From the NCBI RefSeq assembly GCF_004634425.1, contig NZ_SBJL01000001.1:965001-1029000 (forward strand): a stretch of DNA of 64,000 nt, written 5' to 3'. Shown piece by piece: positions 29,693 to 39,690 of this stretch. A model generated the notes under the pieces. The model was not told where the DNA came from. It did not search any database and worked only from the letters and a program-made list of their open reading frames with translations. The position numbers and the translations under genes were made by a program. Positions within the stretch are counted from its first letter, which is position 1. Each line of letters begins with the position of its first letter. This stretch comes from Vitreimonas flagellata (GTDB lineage: Bacteria; Pseudomonadota; Alphaproteobacteria; Caulobacterales; Aquidulcibacteraceae).

Positions 29693-29718
29693 TCATCCGA
29701 TCCGCGTTCGCGCGCGTA
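29693..29718 (+). promoter_or_regulatory. Possible ECF11-type promoter before fasciclin gene
   Basis: TCATCCG at 29693-29699 is followed after 15 bases by CGTA at 29715-29718, 32 bases before the ATG. It differs at one base from the motif shared by the tspO and mipA promoters, with the same spacing and distance to the start. Weak on its own. Confidence 0.35.
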
Positions 29719-29749
29719 CACAGCGCATCACTTCCTAGGAGATCGATTG

Positions 29750-30328
29750 ATGAAAAGCACTCTTCGACTGACGCTGGCCTCATGCGCCGCGCTTGTGGCG
29801 CTCGCTGCCTGCGCGCAACAGACGCCCCCTGCTGCGGAAGAAACAGCTCAAGCAGCGGTAGAAGCGCCGGCCGCGTCGGGCACGATCGTCGATGCGGCCA
29901 TCGCGTCGCCCGATCACACGACGTTGGTGAGCGCTGTTCAGGCTGCGGGGCTTGTCGAGACGCTCTCCGGCGCCGGCCCCTTCACGGTGTTCGCGCCAAC
30001 CAACGCAGCGTTCGATAAACTTCCGCCCGGCGCGTTGCAAAGCCTGACGCAACCCGAGAACCGTGACGCGCTCTCGCGTATTCTCACTTACCATGTGGTC
30101 TCGGGCCGCGTGAGCGCGGCCGAACTCGGCGCTCAAATCGATGCCGGCGGCGGCAGCGCGACCTTGACGACGGTGCAAGGCGGCACGCTCACGGCAACGC
30201 GTGTGAACGGCGCCATTCGCCTCACCGATTCATCCGGCGCATATGCGACCGTTACGGCGGCCGACGTTGTCGGGTCCAACGGCGTGATCCACGTCATCGA
30301 TACGGTGGTCACCCCGCCAGCGGCCTAA
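29750..30328 (+). CDS. Fasciclin (FAS1) domain lipoprotein
   Basis: A 192-residue exported protein. The signal peptide ends in a lipobox-like LVALAAC, followed by a Pro/Ala/Glu-rich linker to about residue 45 and one complete FAS1 domain at about 46-190. It has the H1 motif GPFTVFAPTNAAFDKLP, the YH motif LTYHVVSG and the end strand GVIHVIDTVVTP. FAS1 domains mediate adhesion or bind small lipophilic molecules at the cell surface. AGGAG lies eight bases before the ATG. A near match to the motif before tspO and mipA lies upstream, and a hairpin terminator follows. Confidence 0.92.
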   Translation: MKSTLRLTLASCAALVALAACAQQTPPAAEETAQAAVEAPAASGTIVDAAIASPDHTTLVSAVQAAGLVETLSGAGPFTVFAPTNAAFDKLPPGALQSLTQPENRDALSRILTYHVVSGRVSAAELGAQIDAGGGSATLTTVQGGTLTATRVNGAIRLTDSSGAYATVTAADVVGSNGVIHVIDTVVTPPAA

Positions 30329-30350
30329 AGCGCGGCTAGTGAAGACCTGT

Positions 30351-30378
30351 GCGCCCGCCGCCTCAACGGCGGGCGCTT
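30351..30378 (+). terminator. Hairpin terminator after fasciclin gene
   Basis: GCGCCCGCCG at 30351-30360 pairs exactly with CGGCGGGCGC at 30367-30376 around a six-base loop, followed only by TT. The stem is strong but the T-run is poor. Confidence 0.65.
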
Positions 30379-30430
30379 CAGCGCTATGACGTCGATTGCC
30401 GCCAGCGTTCAACAGCCGCAAGAAAGCAGC

Positions 30431-30871
30431 ATGAAACGTCGCCTCGCATCGCTCCTCGCCGCGCTATTCTTTGCGCCAACCCTGGCGGCCGCGGAAACAG
30501 AGCTTAGGTTCTCGCGTCCGGGGGAAACGCAAGTCACCACGACAACCCTGCCCGATGGTGCGGAGATCATTACGTGCGACCGCGAGGCCATCCTCAATTT
30601 CTACTGCCTTCGCACAGATATCAATCGAGAAACAGGAGCGCTCGACGCCATCTCGGCGTCGCTGCTACACCAAGGCTGGGCGGTTCTTGGCGCCGACACC
30701 GACAGCCGCCCTTTCACTTTCATCTTCACCCGCCCTCAGGCCGGCACAGCCTGTCCCTTCCTGATCATGATGACGAGCGCGGACACAACACTTCCTGGGA
30801 GGCCTGCTCTGGAAGCAGGCATGGTCGAAATTCAGATCGCGCAAACAGTGGACGTGACCTGCCTCTTTTGA
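30431..30871 (+). CDS. Small secreted protein, unrecognised
   Basis: A 146-residue protein with a clear signal peptide (MKRRLASLLAALFFAPTLAAAE, in outline, cleaved near residue 22) and a mature domain of about 120 residues. The mature part has four cysteines (CDRE, FYCL, ACPF, VTCLF), enough for two disulfides. I do not recognise the family. The ATG at 30431 is used because the signal starts there; a start 45 bases earlier would bury it. It converges with the short-chain dehydrogenase gene, 19 bases between stops. A periplasmic location is likely. Confidence 0.65.
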   Translation: MKRRLASLLAALFFAPTLAAAETELRFSRPGETQVTTTTLPDGAEIITCDREAILNFYCLRTDINRETGALDAISASLLHQGWAVLGADTDSRPFTFIFTRPQAGTACPFLIMMTSADTTLPGRPALEAGMVEIQIAQTVDVTCLF

Positions 30872-30890
30872 ACACGGTCTGTCACTTCGA

Positions 30891-31622
30891 TTAGAACGGA
30901 ATCTTGGCTCCGTCCCACGCGAATGCGCAGCCGGAATCCGAAGACGCCAAGCGCTCCAATACATCGATCAGATGACGCGCGCTCTCTTCGGGCGAAAATA
31001 CGCCATGTGTTGCCGATCGCTGGAAAGGCTTCGACAGCGCACTATCCACAGTGCCCGGGTGCAGCGCCACACAAAGCGCCTTCGGGTTCCTTCGCGCCAA
31101 TTCGATCGCGCATGTCCGGATGATTTGATGCAACGCGGCCTTCGAGGCGCGATACGACGCCCATCCTCCTAAACGATTGTCCTCAATCGATCCAACGCGC
31201 GCCGACAGCGCGGCAAAAATACTGCGTCGTTCCTTGGAGAGAAGCGGCAGAAAATGTCTGGCGATGAGCGCGGGGCCCGTCGCGTTGATAGCGAACATCC
31301 GCTCAAACTGTGATGCGCTGAAGTGGCGCCACGTCTTTTCGGGCTGCATTGCATCACCGTGCAACGCGCCCGTGGCGACGAGCACGAAATCTACCGGGCC
31401 ATCCGCGCCGATCTGCGCCGCCGCTGCGGCGATGCTCGGTTCGTCAACCAGATCGAACGAAAATGGAAGACGCTTCGAACCCGCACGAGGCTCATGCCGC
31501 GCGCCGCAATACACTATTTCGATTCCCGGATTCTCAGCCAGACAATCCGCTAGGGCTCCGCCTATCGCGCCTTGGGCGCCGAATACGACCGCGCGCCCAA
31601 CGAGCGGTTGGCGATCTCCCAT
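30891..31622 (-). CDS. Short-chain dehydrogenase/reductase, C-factor-like
   Basis: A 243-residue Rossmann oxidoreductase. The nucleotide-binding Gly motif is GAQGAIGG near residue 16, the active-site Ser is in FAALSARVGSI and the catalytic pair is YRASK. The C-factor-like SDR subgroup often accompanies photolyase/TspO gene clusters, so a pterin or related carbonyl substrate is possible, but this is inference. The ATG at 31622 lies five bases after the mipA stop, so it is the second gene of a mipA-sdr unit. A TTG nine bases earlier would overlap the mipA end. Confidence 0.85.
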   Translation of the reverse strand: MGDRQPLVGRAVVFGAQGAIGGALADCLAENPGIEIVYCGARHEPRAGSKRLPFSFDLVDEPSIAAAAAQIGADGPVDFVLVATGALHGDAMQPEKTWRHFSASQFERMFAINATGPALIARHFLPLLSKERRSIFAALSARVGSIEDNRLGGWASYRASKAALHQIIRTCAIELARRNPKALCVALHPGTVDSALSKPFQRSATHGVFSPEESARHLIDVLERLASSDSGCAFAWDGAKIPF

Positions 31623-31627
31623 ACTAC

Positions 31628-32449
31628 TCAAAAGAGAGAACGTGAGAAGAAGACGCCGCCGCTGACTTGCGTGGCGTCGCCGCGCGTCTTTACGAGCGAA
31701 CTCTCGCCCGCATCACCGCTTAGTTGATCCATCGAAGCGAACGCACCGATAGACCATGGACTGGCGCCGTTTGGACGCCATAGGGCGTTGGCGCCGGCCC
31801 CGAACGAATACAAGCCGCCGTCCGCGTCGAACACCGCGAGGCCAGACGCCGCCGCTTGCGCCAGGTCCACATCGAAATATGCGCTGACGTAATCATCATC
31901 GACCAGACGAACGCGCGGCCCCAAGCCGTAACGAAGCGTCGATCCATCGAGCGCCACTTGTCCGCGCCATCTCAAGCCAATGTCGGCGACAAATCCCTCA
32001 TGGCCAGACACGCCCCGACGCGCCTCCGCCTCGACCAGCATCGGGCCCAAAGCATATTGCACAAACCCACCCAGTTCGAGGCTCGTATCGACATCGCCCA
32101 GCCCGACAAGATCGGCGCTGTCGTCGCCGCTCAACGCAAAGGCCTGCTCACCGCTCTCCTCACGGCCAAACTTCACGCGCGCGATCGGGCCTGCTTGCAG
32201 ATTGGGCGTGAGAACAGCGCGATAGCCGATCCCCTCCTGGACAGATGCAAAAAAGCGATCGCCATACGCCACGCGAATGTCGGGGACTATCGAAAGACGG
32301 ACCTCGTCGTCACCCTCGTACGATGGAGAAACGATAGCGCCGGCGCCAACGCTCAGACGCCAGCCGCTTGCATCACGCTCTTGCGCCGTCGCAACGCCCA
32401 CCGAAGCGCACAGCATCCCCAGTGTCAAACCTACAGTCGAAATGCGCAT
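31628..32449 (-). CDS. MipA/OmpV family outer-membrane protein
   Basis: A 273-residue outer-membrane beta-barrel. The signal peptide ends at VATAQ near residue 23, and the mature part begins SGWRLSVGAGAIVSPSYEGDDE, which is characteristic of the MipA/OmpV family (GLG-sYeGsd). Alternating strands run to a C-terminal phenylalanine (FFSRSLF), the usual BAM recognition end. Roles of the family include scaffold for murein enzymes or small-molecule passage. A TGATCCG-N15-CGTA motif lies 24 bases upstream of the ATG. The dehydrogenase gene follows after five bases. Confidence 0.88.
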   Translation of the reverse strand: MRISTVGLTLGMLCASVGVATAQERDASGWRLSVGAGAIVSPSYEGDDEVRLSIVPDIRVAYGDRFFASVQEGIGYRAVLTPNLQAGPIARVKFGREESGEQAFALSGDDSADLVGLGDVDTSLELGGFVQYALGPMLVEAEARRGVSGHEGFVADIGLRWRGQVALDGSTLRYGLGPRVRLVDDDYVSAYFDVDLAQAAASGLAVFDADGGLYSFGAGANALWRPNGASPWSIGAFASMDQLSGDAGESSLVKTRGDATQVSGGVFFSRSLF

Positions 32450-32472
32450 ACTACCCCCGCTAACGTCCTTGA

Positions 32473-32498
32473 TACGTCAATGGGGCAGACGCGGATCA
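32473..32498 (-). promoter_or_regulatory. Putative ECF11-type promoter of mipA-sdr
   Basis: On the minus strand TGATCCG occupies 32498-32492 and CGTA occupies 32476-32473, with 16 bases between TGATCC and CGTA. The CGTA lies 24 bases before the mipA ATG, a sensible -10 position. Sequence and spacing are the same as before tspO. They resemble RpoE/ChrR (ECF11) promoters as I remember them (TGATCC, then TA 18 bases on). Confidence 0.6.
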
Positions 32499-32529
32499 GG
32501 AGGTGTGGCGTGTTGCGCTCAACACAGCA

Positions 32530-32961
32530 TCAGGAGTCCGCACGCTGAACGATCGCGCCGCTGGCGAGCAATTCTTCGAGCAGAGCCATGGTCGCACGAC
32601 CGGACGCCGCCGTCGGGGCGAGCTTGGCGTGCTCGAAATACTTCAACAGCAGCCCCGGATTGATCTTGGCCAGTTCCACTTGCCCCATCGACCAAGATCC
32701 AAACGTGCGTTCGGTGATCTCCTCGAACGAAAGCAAGGTGACATGCGTATGTCTCGGATCACGAACGATGGCATTGTACAAAGCGCAAACCTGAGCGCGC
32801 CCGCCTTCGAGCACTTGGATAAATTGCGCATCAGACACGCACAGCAACCCGGTCACACCCCGCTCGGGATTCAGGCGTCGCGATTGCGCCATGATGTCTT
32901 CCAGCAGCTTTGAGCCACGCGGCTCGGCCATTTCGCTGCAATAGAGCAATCGCACCAGCAT
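32530..32961 (-). CDS. BLUF-domain blue-light sensor protein
   Basis: A 143-residue protein consisting of one BLUF (FAD-binding blue-light) domain plus a short helical cap. The photoactive Tyr7 is in LLYCSE, Asn31 is in NPERGVTG, Gln49 is in FIQVLEGG, and Trp90 and Met92 are in FGSWSMG. All residues needed for the flavin hydrogen-bond switch are present. There is no GGDEF, EAL or other output domain, so signalling should act through a partner protein. It starts four bases after the folE stop, implying co-transcription with folE and probably tspO. Confidence 0.92.
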   Translation of the reverse strand: MLVRLLYCSEMAEPRGSKLLEDIMAQSRRLNPERGVTGLLCVSDAQFIQVLEGGRAQVCALYNAIVRDPRHTHVTLLSFEEITERTFGSWSMGQVELAKINPGLLLKYFEHAKLAPTAASGRATMALLEELLASGAIVQRADS

Positions 32962-32965
32962 GGCG

Positions 32966-33676
32966 TCAGTCCTTAAGATTGATCAGAGACAAGAACTCAC
33001 GTCGAAGCGCAGGGTCCTTGAGAAAGACACCGCGCATGACGCTGTTGATCATTTTGGTGTTGTCGTCCTTCACGCCACGCCAATGCATACAATAATGATC
33101 CGCCTCCATGACGACGGCGAGGCCGTCGGGCCGAACCTTCTTGTTGAGCAAGTCAGCCAATTGCGTGATGGCCTCCTCCTGAATCTGCGGCCGCGACATG
33201 ATCCAGTGCGCCAAGCGCGCATATTTCGAGAGGCCGATCAGATTGGAATGCTGATTTGGCATGAGACCGATCCACACACGCCCCATGATCGGACAAAAAT
33301 GATGCGAACACGCGCTCCGAATAGTGACGGGGCCAACGATCATCAATTCATTCAGCGATTCCGCGTTGGGAAATTCCGTGACCTGCGGCGGCGGCGCATA
33401 GCGACCGGCGAACACCTCGGTGAGGTACATCTTGGCGACGCGACGCGCTGTGTCTTGCGTGTTGTGATCGCTTTTCGTGTCGATCACCAGGGCGTCGAGC
33501 ACCGTCTCGAACTTCTGCGCGACTTCTTCGAGAAGCGCATCCATATCGCCTGGTTCCAGCACGTCGGCGATGCAATCATTGGCGTGAAAGCGTCGCCCCT
33601 GGCTCTCCAGGCGCGCGCGAACACGCTGCGAAACACTCGCATCCGCCAAAGTCTCTGTCGATGGCCGCTTTGCCAT
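32966..33676 (-). CDS. folE: GTP cyclohydrolase I
   Basis: Converts GTP to 7,8-dihydroneopterin triphosphate, the first step of folate and biopterin synthesis. The 236-residue protein has the zinc ligands Cys123, His126 and Cys196 (ACSHHFCP and YCMHWRG) and the family segments SNLIGLSKYARL and EADHYC. Residue 124 is Ser where Glu is common (CEHH). The N-terminal 45 residues are longer than in minimal enzymes. Location between tspO and a BLUF gene rather than with fol genes suggests a dedicated pterin supply, for a cofactor or photo-antenna, rather than housekeeping folate. Confidence 0.92.
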   Translation of the reverse strand: MAKRPSTETLADASVSQRVRARLESQGRRFHANDCIADVLEPGDMDALLEEVAQKFETVLDALVIDTKSDHNTQDTARRVAKMYLTEVFAGRYAPPPQVTEFPNAESLNELMIVGPVTIRSACSHHFCPIMGRVWIGLMPNQHSNLIGLSKYARLAHWIMSRPQIQEEAITQLADLLNKKVRPDGLAVVMEADHYCMHWRGVKDDNTKMINSVMRGVFLKDPALRREFLSLINLKD

Positions 33677-33709
33677 ACCTACCCCACACGCATGAATTTT
33701 AGATAGCGC

Positions 33710-34465
33710 TTAGGCCTGACGTTGGCGACGTCTCGCGACGATGACAAGTACGGCCACGACCAGCAGCGCCAACGCCGCAGCCGCAGCAGCTTGCGCCACA
33801 AGCGTCTTTCGCGCCAGTTCCGCAGCATAGACGCCGCCCAGGCCCCAGGCGATCGGCAGGAGATAAAGCGCATTGCGCAAGCGCAAGGCCAACGCGCTCG
33901 CCAAAACAAGAGCAACGGCAATCGCGGCAAGCGCTGCAATTTGCGCATGCTCAGCGCCAATGAACCCTTCGATCGTCAGCGACGTCATGGCATTCACAAT
34001 CGCGGCAATCGTGAGCCAGCCGGCCAGCAGACTCATCGGCGCGCGCACCAACCACTGCTCCGGCGTCGATCCTGCTTCACCGGCGCGCGCAAGCGCAAAA
34101 ATAAGTGCCGCGGCGGCGACGCTCAGAATTCCAAGCGTCCACCAAACGCCATTCAGCGCCGCAGCAATAATCCAAAGCCCGCATCCACTCATCGCAAGCA
34201 CAGAACCCCAGACTAACATCGGTGGCGTGTCTGATCGTGGCCCCAGCACGACTTGGTAGCCGGCATGGGCGATCATGCCGATATAGAGCAGCCCCCAGAT
34301 CGAGAACGCGTAACCCGCCACGCGCAGCGTCGCATCGCCCTGGTAGGAAAATTCCCCAGCCGAAAGCCCGAACCCAAAGAGCGCCTGCGCAGTCGGAACC
34401 GCGACTGCGACAACAGCGGCCAATGCAGCCGCCAACACTCGAATTTGCACCAGCAAAGCGGCCAT
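33710..34465 (-). CDS. TspO/MBR-related membrane protein (long form)
   Basis: A 251-residue protein with about eight membrane helices and a short basic tail (RRRQRQ). The segments YAFSIWGLLYIGMIAHAGYQ and VRAPMSLLAGWLTIAAIVN match the long variant of tryptophan-rich sensory proteins. TspO proteins bind porphyrins and act in oxidative and light responses in the inner or outer membrane. It is the first gene of the tspO-folE-BLUF run, with 33 bases to folE. An ECF11-like promoter motif lies about 31 bases before the ATG. The family assignment is moderate because this long form is divergent from classical TspO. Confidence 0.65.
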   Translation of the reverse strand: MAALLVQIRVLAAALAAVVAVAVPTAQALFGFGLSAGEFSYQGDATLRVAGYAFSIWGLLYIGMIAHAGYQVVLGPRSDTPPMLVWGSVLAMSGCGLWIIAAALNGVWWTLGILSVAAAALIFALARAGEAGSTPEQWLVRAPMSLLAGWLTIAAIVNAMTSLTIEGFIGAEHAQIAALAAIAVALVLASALALRLRNALYLLPIAWGLGGVYAAELARKTLVAQAAAAAALALLVVAVLVIVARRRQRQA

Positions 34466-34495
34466 CCCAGATCGACCAAATCACGAAGGGGAAGG

Positions 34496-34521
34496 TACGC
34501 CGGCCGCGGCTAAACGGATCA
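34496..34521 (-). promoter_or_regulatory. Putative ECF11-type promoter of tspO-folE-BLUF
   Basis: On the minus strand TGATCCG lies at 34521-34515 and CGTA at 34499-34496, with 16 bases between TGATCC and CGTA. The CGTA is 31 bases before the tspO ATG. It is identical in core bases and spacing to the site before mipA, 2 kb away. The surrounding 34466-34670 gap holds nothing else I recognise. Confidence 0.6.
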
Positions 34522-36320: not shown

Positions 36321-37265
36321 CTATTGTCGCCGTCGTGCGCGCGCCTCGTCTTGCTCGCGCAAATAGGTGATGACCGCATCCACTTCAGAGGGTGAGAGCC
36401 CCAAATTGGGCATAGGCAAATTGCGATAGCGGGGAAGCATCGCCGTCGCTGTTGGATCGCCCTCGGCTAACATCACGTCGGGCTCACGAATCCAACGCGA
36501 GAGCCAAGCGTTTGAACGCGCCTGCGTCACGCCGGCTAGGTCGGGTCCGAGCCGATCGCCCTCCCCGAGCGTGTGGCACGACCGACAACGGGTTCGATAC
36601 AAATATGCGCCGTTGGAGGTTTCCGTCACACGTCCCGCCACCGCATAAGTTTGCCGCGACTCACCGTCAGGCATGTGGTTTTGCAGACGGCTGCTTAGAA
36701 GGTTCGCGAGCAATTGCGGATTTTCGTACGCGGTACGTCGAATCCATTGTCCGGTGACTTCGTTGCCGACGATTATGTTCGTATCGTGCTCCGTGAGCGG
36801 TCTGCCAGGGTCAATCGGACGAACGCCAAGCCGGCGTTGAAGCAAGTCCACGTCTTCTCGCGATCCCGTCAAGAACGTCCATCCCGGCCCGACATCATAT
36901 GAGCGCATGAAGCGCCGCAACGATGCTGGCGTATCGCGCGCAGGATCCACCGAGATCGAATACATATGGACATCGCGCCCCACGCGATCGCCCAGGATTT
37001 GTTGGACACGCCGCAATTGGGCGGTGTCGAGCGGGCAGATGTCTGCGCACGACGTAAAGATGAAATTGATCGAGACAATCTTCCCGCGGATCAGATCATC
37101 ATAGAAACGCACCTGCCTCCCGTTGTGATCTGTGAGGACCACGTTCGGAAAATACTCGGCCCGCCAGCGCGTCTGCTGTGACATCGCCGATTGCGGCATC
37201 AAGGTGAGCGCCGTGATCGTGAGCGCCGATGCGATGCGCGCCCAGAGTCGCCACTTTCGCATCAT
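36321..37265 (-). CDS. SCO1/SenC-cytochrome c fusion protein
   Basis: A 314-residue exported protein joining two domains. Residues about 35-195 form a SCO thioredoxin fold with copper ligands Cys73 and Cys77 (CADIC) and His160 (EHDTNIIVG). Residues about 215-305 form a class I c-type cytochrome with haem motif CRSCH (Cys227, Cys230, His231) and a downstream Met-rich stretch (MLPRYRNLPMPNL) likely to hold the axial Met. It is coupled by an ATGA overlap to the multicopper oxidase gene upstream. A role in copper delivery to, or electron transfer from, that oxidase in the periplasm is inferred. Confidence 0.88.
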   Translation of the reverse strand: MMRKWRLWARIASALTITALTLMPQSAMSQQTRWRAEYFPNVVLTDHNGRQVRFYDDLIRGKIVSINFIFTSCADICPLDTAQLRRVQQILGDRVGRDVHMYSISVDPARDTPASLRRFMRSYDVGPGWTFLTGSREDVDLLQRRLGVRPIDPGRPLTEHDTNIIVGNEVTGQWIRRTAYENPQLLANLLSSRLQNHMPDGESRQTYAVAGRVTETSNGAYLYRTRCRSCHTLGEGDRLGPDLAGVTQARSNAWLSRWIREPDVMLAEGDPTATAMLPRYRNLPMPNLGLSPSEVDAVITYLREQDEARARRRQ

Positions 37266-39541
37266 TGCGCCGTCGGCAGATCGAGAGATGGCTCGTAATA
37301 CACGCCCTCCCAGTCTGCGATGGGCGTCGGGATCGCCACCGCCTGGCCGGGATTACGGTTGTCCCACCTGAGCAGCATCGAATGATCCTCGTGCATCGTG
37401 TTGTGACAATGCTCCATGTAGGTTCCGAGGAATTCGCGGAAGCGCAGAAGCACCTGCACGCGGCTTGTGGTGTGCGGGCCAGCCCCCACGCGGAACACAT
37501 CTTTCCGCGCACCGCGCTCCCAACTCGGCGGCGGGGCGCCGTCACGGCTCAAAATGCGCCCCTCTTCGAAGTGGACATGGACCGGATGCGCCCAGCCGTC
37601 GCCTGACTCAAACTCCCAGACTTCCCAGCGATTGTTAGTGGTGGCGACGGAGACGCGATGAGGATCCATGCCGAGGCCAACGTCCCCATCTACACGAATC
37701 GTCCACGGCATTTCGTCCGTGTTTCCAGTGCGGCCAAATTCAAATGTCCGCCGACGTGCATTGTTGATCTCGGTCTGCGATACTTGTGGCAGCGGCACCA
37801 TCTGACGGCCGCCCTCCTCGTACATTGCGGGATCCATACTCCGATCCACGCCACCATAAGCCTGCACGCGGAATTCCATGATGCGGCCAACGCCCGGATC
37901 GCCTTGGTAGCGACCGCTGAAGGCGTCCGCGATCGGCACCGTTTCGCGCGGGCGACGACCGTCACGGTGCTCAAGCAGATTCACGAGATAGAGCCGCGCG
38001 CCCGGTGTGAATTGGCTGAAATCGACAACGATGTCGTAGCGCTCAGCGATCGCTTGCTCCGGCAGCGACTGCGATTCCGAATTCGGGAAACGCACAGTGT
38101 GCTGCATGATGTTGCCATCATTGGCGATCATATGGAACGGCACTGGTTGCCCAAGCTGATTGACCAAGGCGAGTTGGAAATTTCGCGACACGCTGCCGTT
38201 CAGAATACGGAAGCGATAACGGCGCGCGCGAACATCCAAGTATGGCCGCCAGGTCCAATTCACCAACACTTGGTCGCCCAGGAAGCCATCGAGATTGAAG
38301 ATATTAAACCAGAGCTGGCCAGCGGAATCCCAGGCCTTATCGGCAATGACAAGATTCACATCGTAGTCGCGATTGCCCCAATCAAGCGCGGTGCCACTCG
38401 GGAAGCAAAGGTTTGGATTATTCGCGTTAGCGTAATTGCAGCGCAAACCTTCACGACCACGATCAATGGCGCTGTAGATATTCATCATCGCCGCATTGCC
38501 CTTGTACACGTTCTGCGCCGTGTAATCGAGCATGTGGTCGTGGAACCAAAGTGTGCTTTGCGTTTCGCGCCAATCGCCGCGGATGCGGGTGATGCCGCCA
38601 TTTCCGTCCGGATACCCTGCGCGATTGTCCGTGGCGCTGGTGTTGATCGTGTCGTGCCCCGCCAACACCATCGGCCAATGATAATCGTAGAATTGCCCAG
38701 GGAAGAAGAACGCGGCCGCAAACCCATCACTTTCAGCGGGATTGTGCCCGTTGTGTTGGTGGGTGGTGATCGTGTTGGCCCCGAAACCGTTGTTGGCGGA
38801 GGGATCAATTGGAAGCGTGTTGAAGTGACGGAAAAGAACCGGCTCGCCAATGCGGGCCATCAGCAGCTTAGGCGGCATCGTGCCGTCGAAGGTCCACACC
38901 GAATTACGATTTTGAATCGGAAAGTTGGGGTGAAAACGAACCTCGGTGCCGCGCGTCGTGCCGCCCCTGTAATAGAGGCCGCCATTACGACGGAACTCAC
39001 CGACGGCATAACCATGGCGCTGCCATGCATCGCGCAAACCGCGGTTCGCACGCGCGCCCGCTTGCGCCGATTGAAAATAGACGCGCGGATAAAACTCATC
39101 CCAGCGCTGGTGAGCAAACCATTCGCCCGGCGGCCGCCCCTCGACGGAACTCGTCGCGAGCGGGCGTACGCAAGACCCAACCAGCGTGGCCCAGTAAGAG
39201 CCACGCGTTTGGTTCGCCTCGCGCGTCGGTAAGGGCGACAAGGGTTGGCGCAAGAACGTATCAAGCGCTGCGCTGTTGGGCGTGCCAGCGCATCCATTCG
39301 CTGAAGGCAATGGCGTACACGTGGGGCAAGGCGCTGTCGGCACCGCCTGGGTGCCGAATTCCTCAAACAACATCAGCGGCTGACTGAAGGGCGTCGCCCC
39401 AAAGGTTGGGCTACGCGGCCCGCCAGTGGGAACATCGAAATCTTCTGCTTTTGCAGTCGGCGTGGTCAGAAGCGTCAAGGCGAGGGCGCCACCGACGATC
39501 AATTTTGCCGAATACCGACCAATCCCAAAAAGCGCGCCCAT
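37262..39541 (-). CDS. Large periplasmic multicopper oxidase
   Basis: A 759-residue exported multicopper oxidase (signal peptide to about residue 30, ending TAKA). All four copper-binding blocks are visible: THQHNGHNP, WFHDHM, HPVHVH and the type 1/type 3 block HCHNTMHEDHSM, which has Cys and a Met ligand. The protein is larger than laccase or CueO (about 500), with an N-terminal addition of roughly 150 residues. This resembles the big oxidases linked to metal or phenol oxidation. The ATG at 39541 is preferred (GGGGA upstream) over one 14 codons earlier. It is the first gene of a two-gene operon with the SCO-cytochrome fusion. Confidence 0.9.
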   Translation of the reverse strand: MGALFGIGRYSAKLIVGGALALTLLTTPTAKAEDFDVPTGGPRSPTFGATPFSQPLMLFEEFGTQAVPTAPCPTCTPLPSANGCAGTPNSAALDTFLRQPLSPLPTREANQTRGSYWATLVGSCVRPLATSSVEGRPPGEWFAHQRWDEFYPRVYFQSAQAGARANRGLRDAWQRHGYAVGEFRRNGGLYYRGGTTRGTEVRFHPNFPIQNRNSVWTFDGTMPPKLLMARIGEPVLFRHFNTLPIDPSANNGFGANTITTHQHNGHNPAESDGFAAAFFFPGQFYDYHWPMVLAGHDTINTSATDNRAGYPDGNGGITRIRGDWRETQSTLWFHDHMLDYTAQNVYKGNAAMMNIYSAIDRGREGLRCNYANANNPNLCFPSGTALDWGNRDYDVNLVIADKAWDSAGQLWFNIFNLDGFLGDQVLVNWTWRPYLDVRARRYRFRILNGSVSRNFQLALVNQLGQPVPFHMIANDGNIMQHTVRFPNSESQSLPEQAIAERYDIVVDFSQFTPGARLYLVNLLEHRDGRRPRETVPIADAFSGRYQGDPGVGRIMEFRVQAYGGVDRSMDPAMYEEGGRQMVPLPQVSQTEINNARRRTFEFGRTGNTDEMPWTIRVDGDVGLGMDPHRVSVATTNNRWEVWEFESGDGWAHPVHVHFEEGRILSRDGAPPPSWERGARKDVFRVGAGPHTTSRVQVLLRFREFLGTYMEHCHNTMHEDHSMLLRWDNRNPGQAVAIPTPIADWEGVYYEPSLDLPTAQ

Positions 39542-39690
39542 TCTGAATCCCCAGATTCCCACGACAGACCGCAGCGTCCGCACATGGAAACCAAGTAATT
39601 CTGGAACAATTTACCATGAAGCGAACGTAATTCGCCCATTAAGGGAATGGCTTATTTATCAATACATTGACGACTGTAATTGCAACCACT

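Follow-up and report, generated by a model that had tools for sequence, protein, structure and literature searches.

Two short putative transcription units on the minus strand of a 64-kb stretch of the Vitreimonas flagellata genome (contig NZ_SBJL01000001.1, positions 965,001 to 1,029,000; hereafter the window) bring together a GTP cyclohydrolase I (FolE), a stand-alone BLUF photosensor, a MipA/OmpV-type outer-membrane protein, a short-chain dehydrogenase (SDR) and a membrane protein, and they raise the question of what controls such a set of genes and why an enzyme of pterin synthesis should be encoded next to a blue-light sensor. An earlier note, made from the letters of the window, had read the five genes as a light or singlet-oxygen regulon behind twin promoters for an extracytoplasmic function (ECF) sigma factor of group ECF11. 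In light of the results presented here, we propose, with a probability of roughly 0.6, that the region 29693-34521 is a target cluster of the host's ECF11 sigma factor, RpoE, and that FolE and BLUF, both encoded within it, are functionally linked (Table 1). The earlier reading is sustained by the ECF11 sites, the ChrR-linked sigma factor and the kinds of target genes, but loses the TspO label that it had given to the first gene.

Twin Predicted Promoter Sites and Their Probable Sigma Factor

The motif TGATCCG-N15-CGTA, previously placed at 34521-34496 and 32498-32473 of the minus strand, has exactly two matches in the window, at precisely these positions, with 30 and 23 bases separating them from the respective start codons (ATG 34465 and ATG 32449). 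Its rarity, formerly put at about 0.03 matches by chance, is borne out by an expectation of 0.05 and by the fact that none of 100 dinucleotide shuffles contains two or more matches. The form TGATCC-N16-CGTA picks out the identical two matches at likewise 0.05 expected; when up to one mismatch is allowed, the window holds seven sites against 2.73 expected, a count that three of 100 shuffles reach. The twin sites are confirmed, and chance does not account for them. The motif had been likened to RpoE/ChrR promoters, and it does coincide with published ECF11 elements: TGATCC-N16-CGTA is the consensus printed for P. syringae ECF11 (PMC5507510), and Shewanella transcription starts map to TGATCC/CGTA promoters (PMC4336711), while the motif was also looked for in PMC3597554, where none was found. 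Both window sites are predicted ECF11 promoters because the same site recurs at the rpoE genes of the host and of its family and agrees with the published consensus and the mapped Shewanella starts.

Seeing neither rpoE-chrR nor photolyase in the window, the earlier note had supposed that the functional core might be new or lie elsewhere and had pointed to the whole genome for both the motif and the sigma/anti-sigma pair. Both are there. The 3.91-Mb genome contains nine exact TGATCC-N16-CGTA sites, four of them at gene starts, namely those of unit 1, unit 2, rpoE-chrR and an outer-membrane barrel gene, and its one ChrR match scores 151.7 bits against TIGR02451, above the cut-off. This ChrR carries a cupin domain (PF12973, 48.9 bits, cut-off 27) and a zf-HC2 region that remains below its cut-off (19.7 against 22.2 bits), with HVDGCAQC present in the sequence. 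The preceding gene encodes an ECF sigma factor with matches to PF04542, PF04545 and PF08281, corresponding to regions 2 and 4, and the exact site is found at its start (C1:1518899-1518924). Genes for an amine oxidase and a DUF1365 protein are arranged divergently from rpoE, with a site matching at 9/10 bases; such an amine oxidase/DUF1365 locus and photolyase are usual targets of ECF11 RpoE-ChrR systems. The host's photolyase gene also lies outside the window, but its best upstream score is 7/10, and it is therefore not evidently in the regulon. No link to the regulon was found through the nearest exact site (C1:537845) either; it lies inside an upstream open reading frame (ORF) that by eye is glycosyltransferase-like.

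The association of motif and sigma factor extends through the family as classified in GTDB, where 48 of 60 genomes have a ChrR match (E<=0.001) and 42 have one above the cut-off. From a sample of 30 ChrR loci, the host's included, BLAST recovered rpoE in 27, and the best upstream site of these genes is exact in 19 and 9/10 in a further four; the nearest control, in which permuted motifs were run over comparable folE-upstream stretches, gave no exact site in 780. Together, these observations make it quite probable that RpoE transcribes the two units.

A Second, Divergent FolE Paired with a PixD-Type Photosensor

The window FolE is 29% identical to the host's other FolE (C3:400845) and, for the four FolE models listed from NCBIfam, scores below each curated cut-off. 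Its residues C123, H125, H126, H194 and C196, which we take to be those of the zinc and active site, show an invariance of at least 98% across 83 aligned rows. The same holds for Y7, N31, Q49, W90 and M92 of BLUF in 82 rows, and the roles of the Tyr, Gln, Asn and Met residues in the flavin network and photocycle of BLUF proteins have been described (PMC5899715). A structure model of the photosensor retrieves Tll0078/PixD entries at all of Foldseek ranks 1-24 (TM 0.82-0.91, 33-37% identity). In phmmer alignments the match of the window BLUF runs as far as residue 131 for Tll0078 and residue 123 for PixD but ends at 96 for BlrB; the protein thus has a PixD-like C-terminal part.

The pairing of the two genes proves to be widespread. 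A scan of named genomes returned 324 relatives of the window FolE, of which the best 80, by similarity to it, were kept. In 79 of them, BLUF is the gene directly downstream, in the same orientation, and in the remaining locus (L162) the contig ends just past folE. Where measured (76 loci), the two genes are most often separated by 7-8 nt (46 loci; range -1 to 25), and the genomes are titled Alpha-, Beta- and Gammaproteobacteria. No ORF longer than 360 aa with FolE as best match, as expected of a fusion, was found in the 80 loci, and upon clustering of all their selected ORFs the largest cluster beyond folE and BLUF spans 17 loci. Within the family, FolE of the window type is present in two of the 59 other genomes (G034 and G051, at 74 and 77% identity), and BLUF directly follows folE in both, in G034 in the order rpoE-chrR-folE-BLUF. 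Title and abstract searches of the literature, limited to open access, found no report of a FolE-BLUF pair. The pair is also present in Cupriavidus metallidurans CH34, a laboratory strain available in culture (NC_007974.2 558041-559167), at a place where the gene table of the record has no genes.

Since the 80 loci had been kept for their likeness to the window FolE, we turned to an even sample of 398 Pseudomonadota genomes as well, defining the FolE clade at E<=1e-60. It is found in 22 of them, host included, with 23 genes in total. With the window's gene set aside, 22 genes remain, and BLUF is directly downstream in 13 of these. One of these genomes (G396) has two FolE-clade genes (L200 and L215), one with BLUF downstream and the other without. 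A FolE tree was then built from 50 rows, comprising 22 of the 80 loci, the window, G034, G051, 22 genes of the 398-genome sample and three plasmid-collection rows; L162 and L185, a duplicate, were omitted, and 39 of the rows are BLUF-paired and 11 unpaired. On this tree the presence of BLUF requires at least three changes, against a mean of 10.2 when shuffled. FolE and BLUF distances correlate over 81 pairs (r=0.65, with none of 2000 permutations as high). That the two proteins are functionally linked is, in our estimate, highly probable.

These observations can be arranged into a mechanism. ChrR would hold RpoE inactive until photo-oxidative stress sets in; the released sigma factor would then transcribe membrane protein-folE-BLUF and mipA-sdr, along with its own rpoE-chrR operon, the outer-membrane barrel gene and probably the fasciclin gene that lies beyond the second unit. 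Within the first unit, folE-BLUF would represent a widespread two-gene module of a dedicated GTP cyclohydrolase I and a PixD-type blue-light sensor, with FolE as the most likely single partner of BLUF, so that blue light could adjust pterin/folate synthesis once transcription is on. That BLUF acts directly on FolE is a tentative proposal from the genomic pattern, and we place it first because no constant partner other than FolE was found.

An even more specific version can be imagined. The FolE decamer has five-fold symmetry, and the animal enzyme is regulated by the pentameric protein GFRP; to our knowledge, many short BLUF proteins are without a known target. BLUF might by analogy be a light-driven counterpart of GFRP, its pentameric rings capping the ends of the FolE decamer and being loosened or tightened by blue light, thereby gating pterin synthesis. 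We consider this model rather unlikely; it is geometrically plausible because the five-fold symmetry of FolE has its match in that of PixD-type BLUF proteins, the PixD crystal form consisting of two stacked pentamer rings (PMC5899715).

Alternative Readings

The strongest competitor leaves the promoters as they are and takes FolE-BLUF as a co-regulated cassette without contact between the two proteins: BLUF would signal elsewhere, to a transcription regulator, to ChrR or to a second-messenger enzyme, and FolE would supply pterins, for instance the folate of a photolyase antenna. We hold this to be about as likely as direct action of BLUF on FolE. FolE of the same clade does occur without BLUF in surroundings of a light-response type, such as MerR-folE-SDR in Caballeronia; MerR, SDR, DCC and lipocalin genes stand near a minority of folE-BLUF pairs; the folE of Pseudomonas is light-inducible, and genes for a MerR-type LitR and a short LOV protein lie in the same region (PMC9758184); and known BLUF proteins work on diverse partners (PMC5899715). 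What this account does not deliver is another recipient of the signal: among the families sought within 6 kb at the 80 loci, no second constant partner emerges, with DCC counted at 18 loci, SDR at 13, MerR at 13 and ChrR at one, against 79 for BLUF, these counts being lower bounds because many of the loci are on short contigs. Searches with the remaining reference genes, a set without photolyase, came up empty at many of the 80 loci.

A second possibility, that the twin sites are recognized by a different ECF sigma factor or reflect an architecture that they share for reasons other than singlet oxygen, appears improbable, as the sites exactly match the published consensus as well as the site at the host's ChrR-linked sigma gene and at most of the family homologs examined. 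That the motif is a chance pattern singled out after the fact can be dismissed almost entirely: it was indeed fixed after having been seen, and over half of its exact genomic sites lie within ORFs, but its presence at 19 of 27 family rpoE genes argues strongly against chance, and it exists in print.

Returning to the proposal of an RpoE target cluster with a FolE-BLUF link, a number of observations weigh against it. On the promoter side, the nine exact genomic sites are only about three times the approximately three expected when the window shuffles are scaled up to the whole genome, and five of the nine fall within ORFs, one of these antisense; with four sites at gene starts and five inside ORFs, we regard position as the stronger part of the signal and count as the weaker. 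In the host, the site at rpoE extends into the first bases of the longest ORF possible for this gene, and a later start codon is therefore assumed, and four of the 27 family rpoE genes reach just 7/10. Upstream of folE, best sites in 78 stretches (two of the 80 loci were left out, their upstream sequence being too short) are exact in three cases and nine-of-ten in four, which exceeds the 0 and 3 in 780 for permuted motifs and speaks for the proposal, but 71 of the 78 loci have no site at 9/10 or better; the G051 pair likewise has no ECF11-like site, and the folE-BLUF pair is therefore no hallmark of ECF11 control. As to the linkage, the 80 loci were selected for FolE likeness, many are on short contigs, and at least L185 (equal to G034, the contig having 100,245 bases and an identical FolE row) and apparently L156 (equal to G051, with the same BLUF row) repeat family genomes. 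Nine of the 22 FolE-clade genes in the even sample have no BLUF within about 1.5 kb, and FolE of this clade can therefore function without a BLUF neighbor. The correlation of FolE and BLUF distances may come from shared ancestry alone. As a possible mark of BLUF dependence, residue 143 of FolE is His in 38 of the 39 paired and one of the 11 unpaired tree rows, and in 95 of 96 paired rows of a wider set in which L190 is counted twice, but for this residue the tree offers only three independent contrasts, two in favor and one against. A variant with altered spacing, TGATCC-N15-CGTA, was also tried as a promoter of these genes and rejected, since seven of its eight sites in the 80 folE loci are minus-strand positions within folE itself.

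Remaining Genes of the Cluster and Candidate Regulon Members

Pfam profiles support four of the five gene names originally given, those of FolE, BLUF, MipA and SDR (Table 1), with PRK09009 as the best NCBIfam model for the last, below its cut-off; the fifth, TspO-like, has neither a profile nor a fold match. The product of this first gene of unit 1 has no Pfam or NCBIfam match at 1e-3, no TspO model appears among its Pfam matches at E 10 and no TspO entry among its 34 Foldseek matches at E 10, and its model has no Foldseek match to the PDB at E<=0.001. The model itself comprises nine helices at a mean pLDDT of 90.3, and relatives are present in 11 of the 60 family genomes, host included, with invariant Trp, Tyr and Asn residues. 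Because the structure model is confident, the product looks like a real membrane protein of no recognized family.

Table 1. Features of the proposed target cluster (window coordinates)
Feature	Position	Strand	Basis
Predicted ECF11 (RpoE-ChrR) promoter 1, TGATCC-N16-CGTA	34496..34521	-	Motif scan; motif shared with host rpoE-chrR and 19/27 family rpoE genes
Membrane protein, 251 aa, family unassigned, first gene of unit 1 (earlier "TspO-like")	33710..34465	-	Structure model, family relatives
folE, second and divergent GTP cyclohydrolase I	32966..33676	-	PF01227, 149.1 bits (cut-off 27)
Stand-alone BLUF photosensor, PixD type; begins 4 nt after folE stop	32530..32961	-	PF04940, 100.1 bits
Predicted ECF11 promoter 2, TGATCC-N16-CGTA	32473..32498	-	Motif scan of window
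MipA/OmpV-type outer-membrane protein	31628..32449	-	PF06629, 138.6 bits
SDR; ATG 5 nt past mipA stop	30891..31622	-	PF00106, 63.6 bits
Hypothetical protein, 161 aa, possibly co-transcribed with fasciclin gene	30386..30871	+	ORF alone; no Pfam match
Fasciclin-domain protein	29750..30328	+	PF02469, 119.5 bits, scored as ORF from TTG 29747
Possible third ECF11 promoter, TCATCC-N16-CGTA, 9/10 bases	29693..29718	+	Motif scan; exact site before homologous congener gene

Beyond what the earlier note had covered, namely in addition to the FolE-BLUF pairing across genomes, a fasciclin-domain gene on the opposite strand is preceded by a possible third promoter. The host genome holds 228 sites with up to one mismatch, and a 9/10 score by itself therefore means little; as the relaxed motif is not rare, the case rests on homologous fasciclin genes. 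In the congener G033 (locus L033) a fasciclin gene 78% identical to the window's has an exact site just 5' of its likely ATG, exact sites also precede fasciclin genes in L124 and L140, and in L137 an exact site lies 90 nt within the longest fasciclin ORF. The outer-membrane barrel gene is a likely conserved member, as judged from its upstream sequences: an exact site (G000:C3:235931-235956; L009 1501-1526) precedes this 271-aa beta-barrel gene in the host, and a 65% identical homolog in L185 (15346+) likewise has one.

The rpoE gene of G034/L185 is preceded by a 9/10 site, and on the same contig (L185 6388-10615; G034:C7) the rpoE-chrR-folE-BLUF run is followed by an ORF that by eye resembles a response regulator, with a Rossmann-type oxidoreductase ORF behind an exact ECF11 site on the opposite strand. 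In G033 and G052 sdr, the membrane-protein gene and mipA are again clustered, without folE-BLUF, and the neighborhood therefore reassorts; at the corresponding loci (L033 and L031) the stretch upstream of sdr resembles, by eye, a SOUL heme-binding protein and DUF2256. Elsewhere in the window (36321-39583, minus strand), a gene whose product combines SCO1/SenC and cytochrome c domains adjoins a 773-aa ORF that by eye is multicopper-oxidase-like.

Implications and Comparison with Known Systems

With the proposed cluster, a singlet-oxygen response that has been studied in depth would reach a lineage that has received little attention. Of greater weight is the FolE-BLUF pair, in which a closely linked enzyme offers short BLUF proteins a target that can be tested directly. 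Such a link would further suggest a reason for the retention of a spare GTP cyclohydrolase in light-response clusters. Should light gate FolE directly, the pair would exemplify a new way of controlling an enzyme by light and might be of use as an optogenetic part; were the GFRP-like model to hold, a widespread light-gated metabolic enzyme would result.

From sequence, the regulon itself is predicted to be a further example of the known ECF11 RpoE-ChrR type, and FolE-BLUF combines known parts in a pairing for which the open-access searches turned up no report. The closest counterpart of the regulon is the RpoE-ChrR regulon of Rhodobacter sphaeroides, which features the same sigma/ChrR pair and the same kinds of targets (PMC7074977; reviewed in PMC6852236), listing fasciclin (RSP_1409), GTP cyclohydrolase (RSP_1852, folE2) and SDR (RSP_1087) genes (PMC7074977). 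Unlike in R. sphaeroides, the window FolE is of type I and paired with BLUF, MipA and the membrane protein of no recognized family are added, and the host photolyase is without a site. The P. syringae PSPTO_1043 ECF11 regulon is governed by the same consensus, TGATCC-N16-CGTA, whereas the words "folE" and "cyclohydrolase" are absent from the main text of the respective paper (PMC5507510). In the Shewanella oneidensis RpoE2 regulon a CsgA-type SDR forms one unit with a photolyase-related gene (PMC4336711).

On the side of photoreception, animal GFRP bound to GTP cyclohydrolase I is a precedent for a small regulator on the decameric enzyme, although GFRP is not a BLUF protein and responds to metabolites rather than light. 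The short BLUF proteins PixD and Tll0078, closest to the window BLUF model, have PixE, a phototaxis component, and not FolE as their known partner. The Pseudomonas LitR/PplR system in turn comprises light-induced folE, SDR, FAD oxidoreductase and furan fatty-acid synthase genes, and its folE region also holds the gene of a flavin-based blue-light sensor, a short LOV protein (PMC9758184). There, a LOV protein and a MerR-type regulator are employed in place of the BLUF and ECF11 of the window, and the partner of the Pseudomonas LOV protein is the regulator PmlR2 (PMC9758184).

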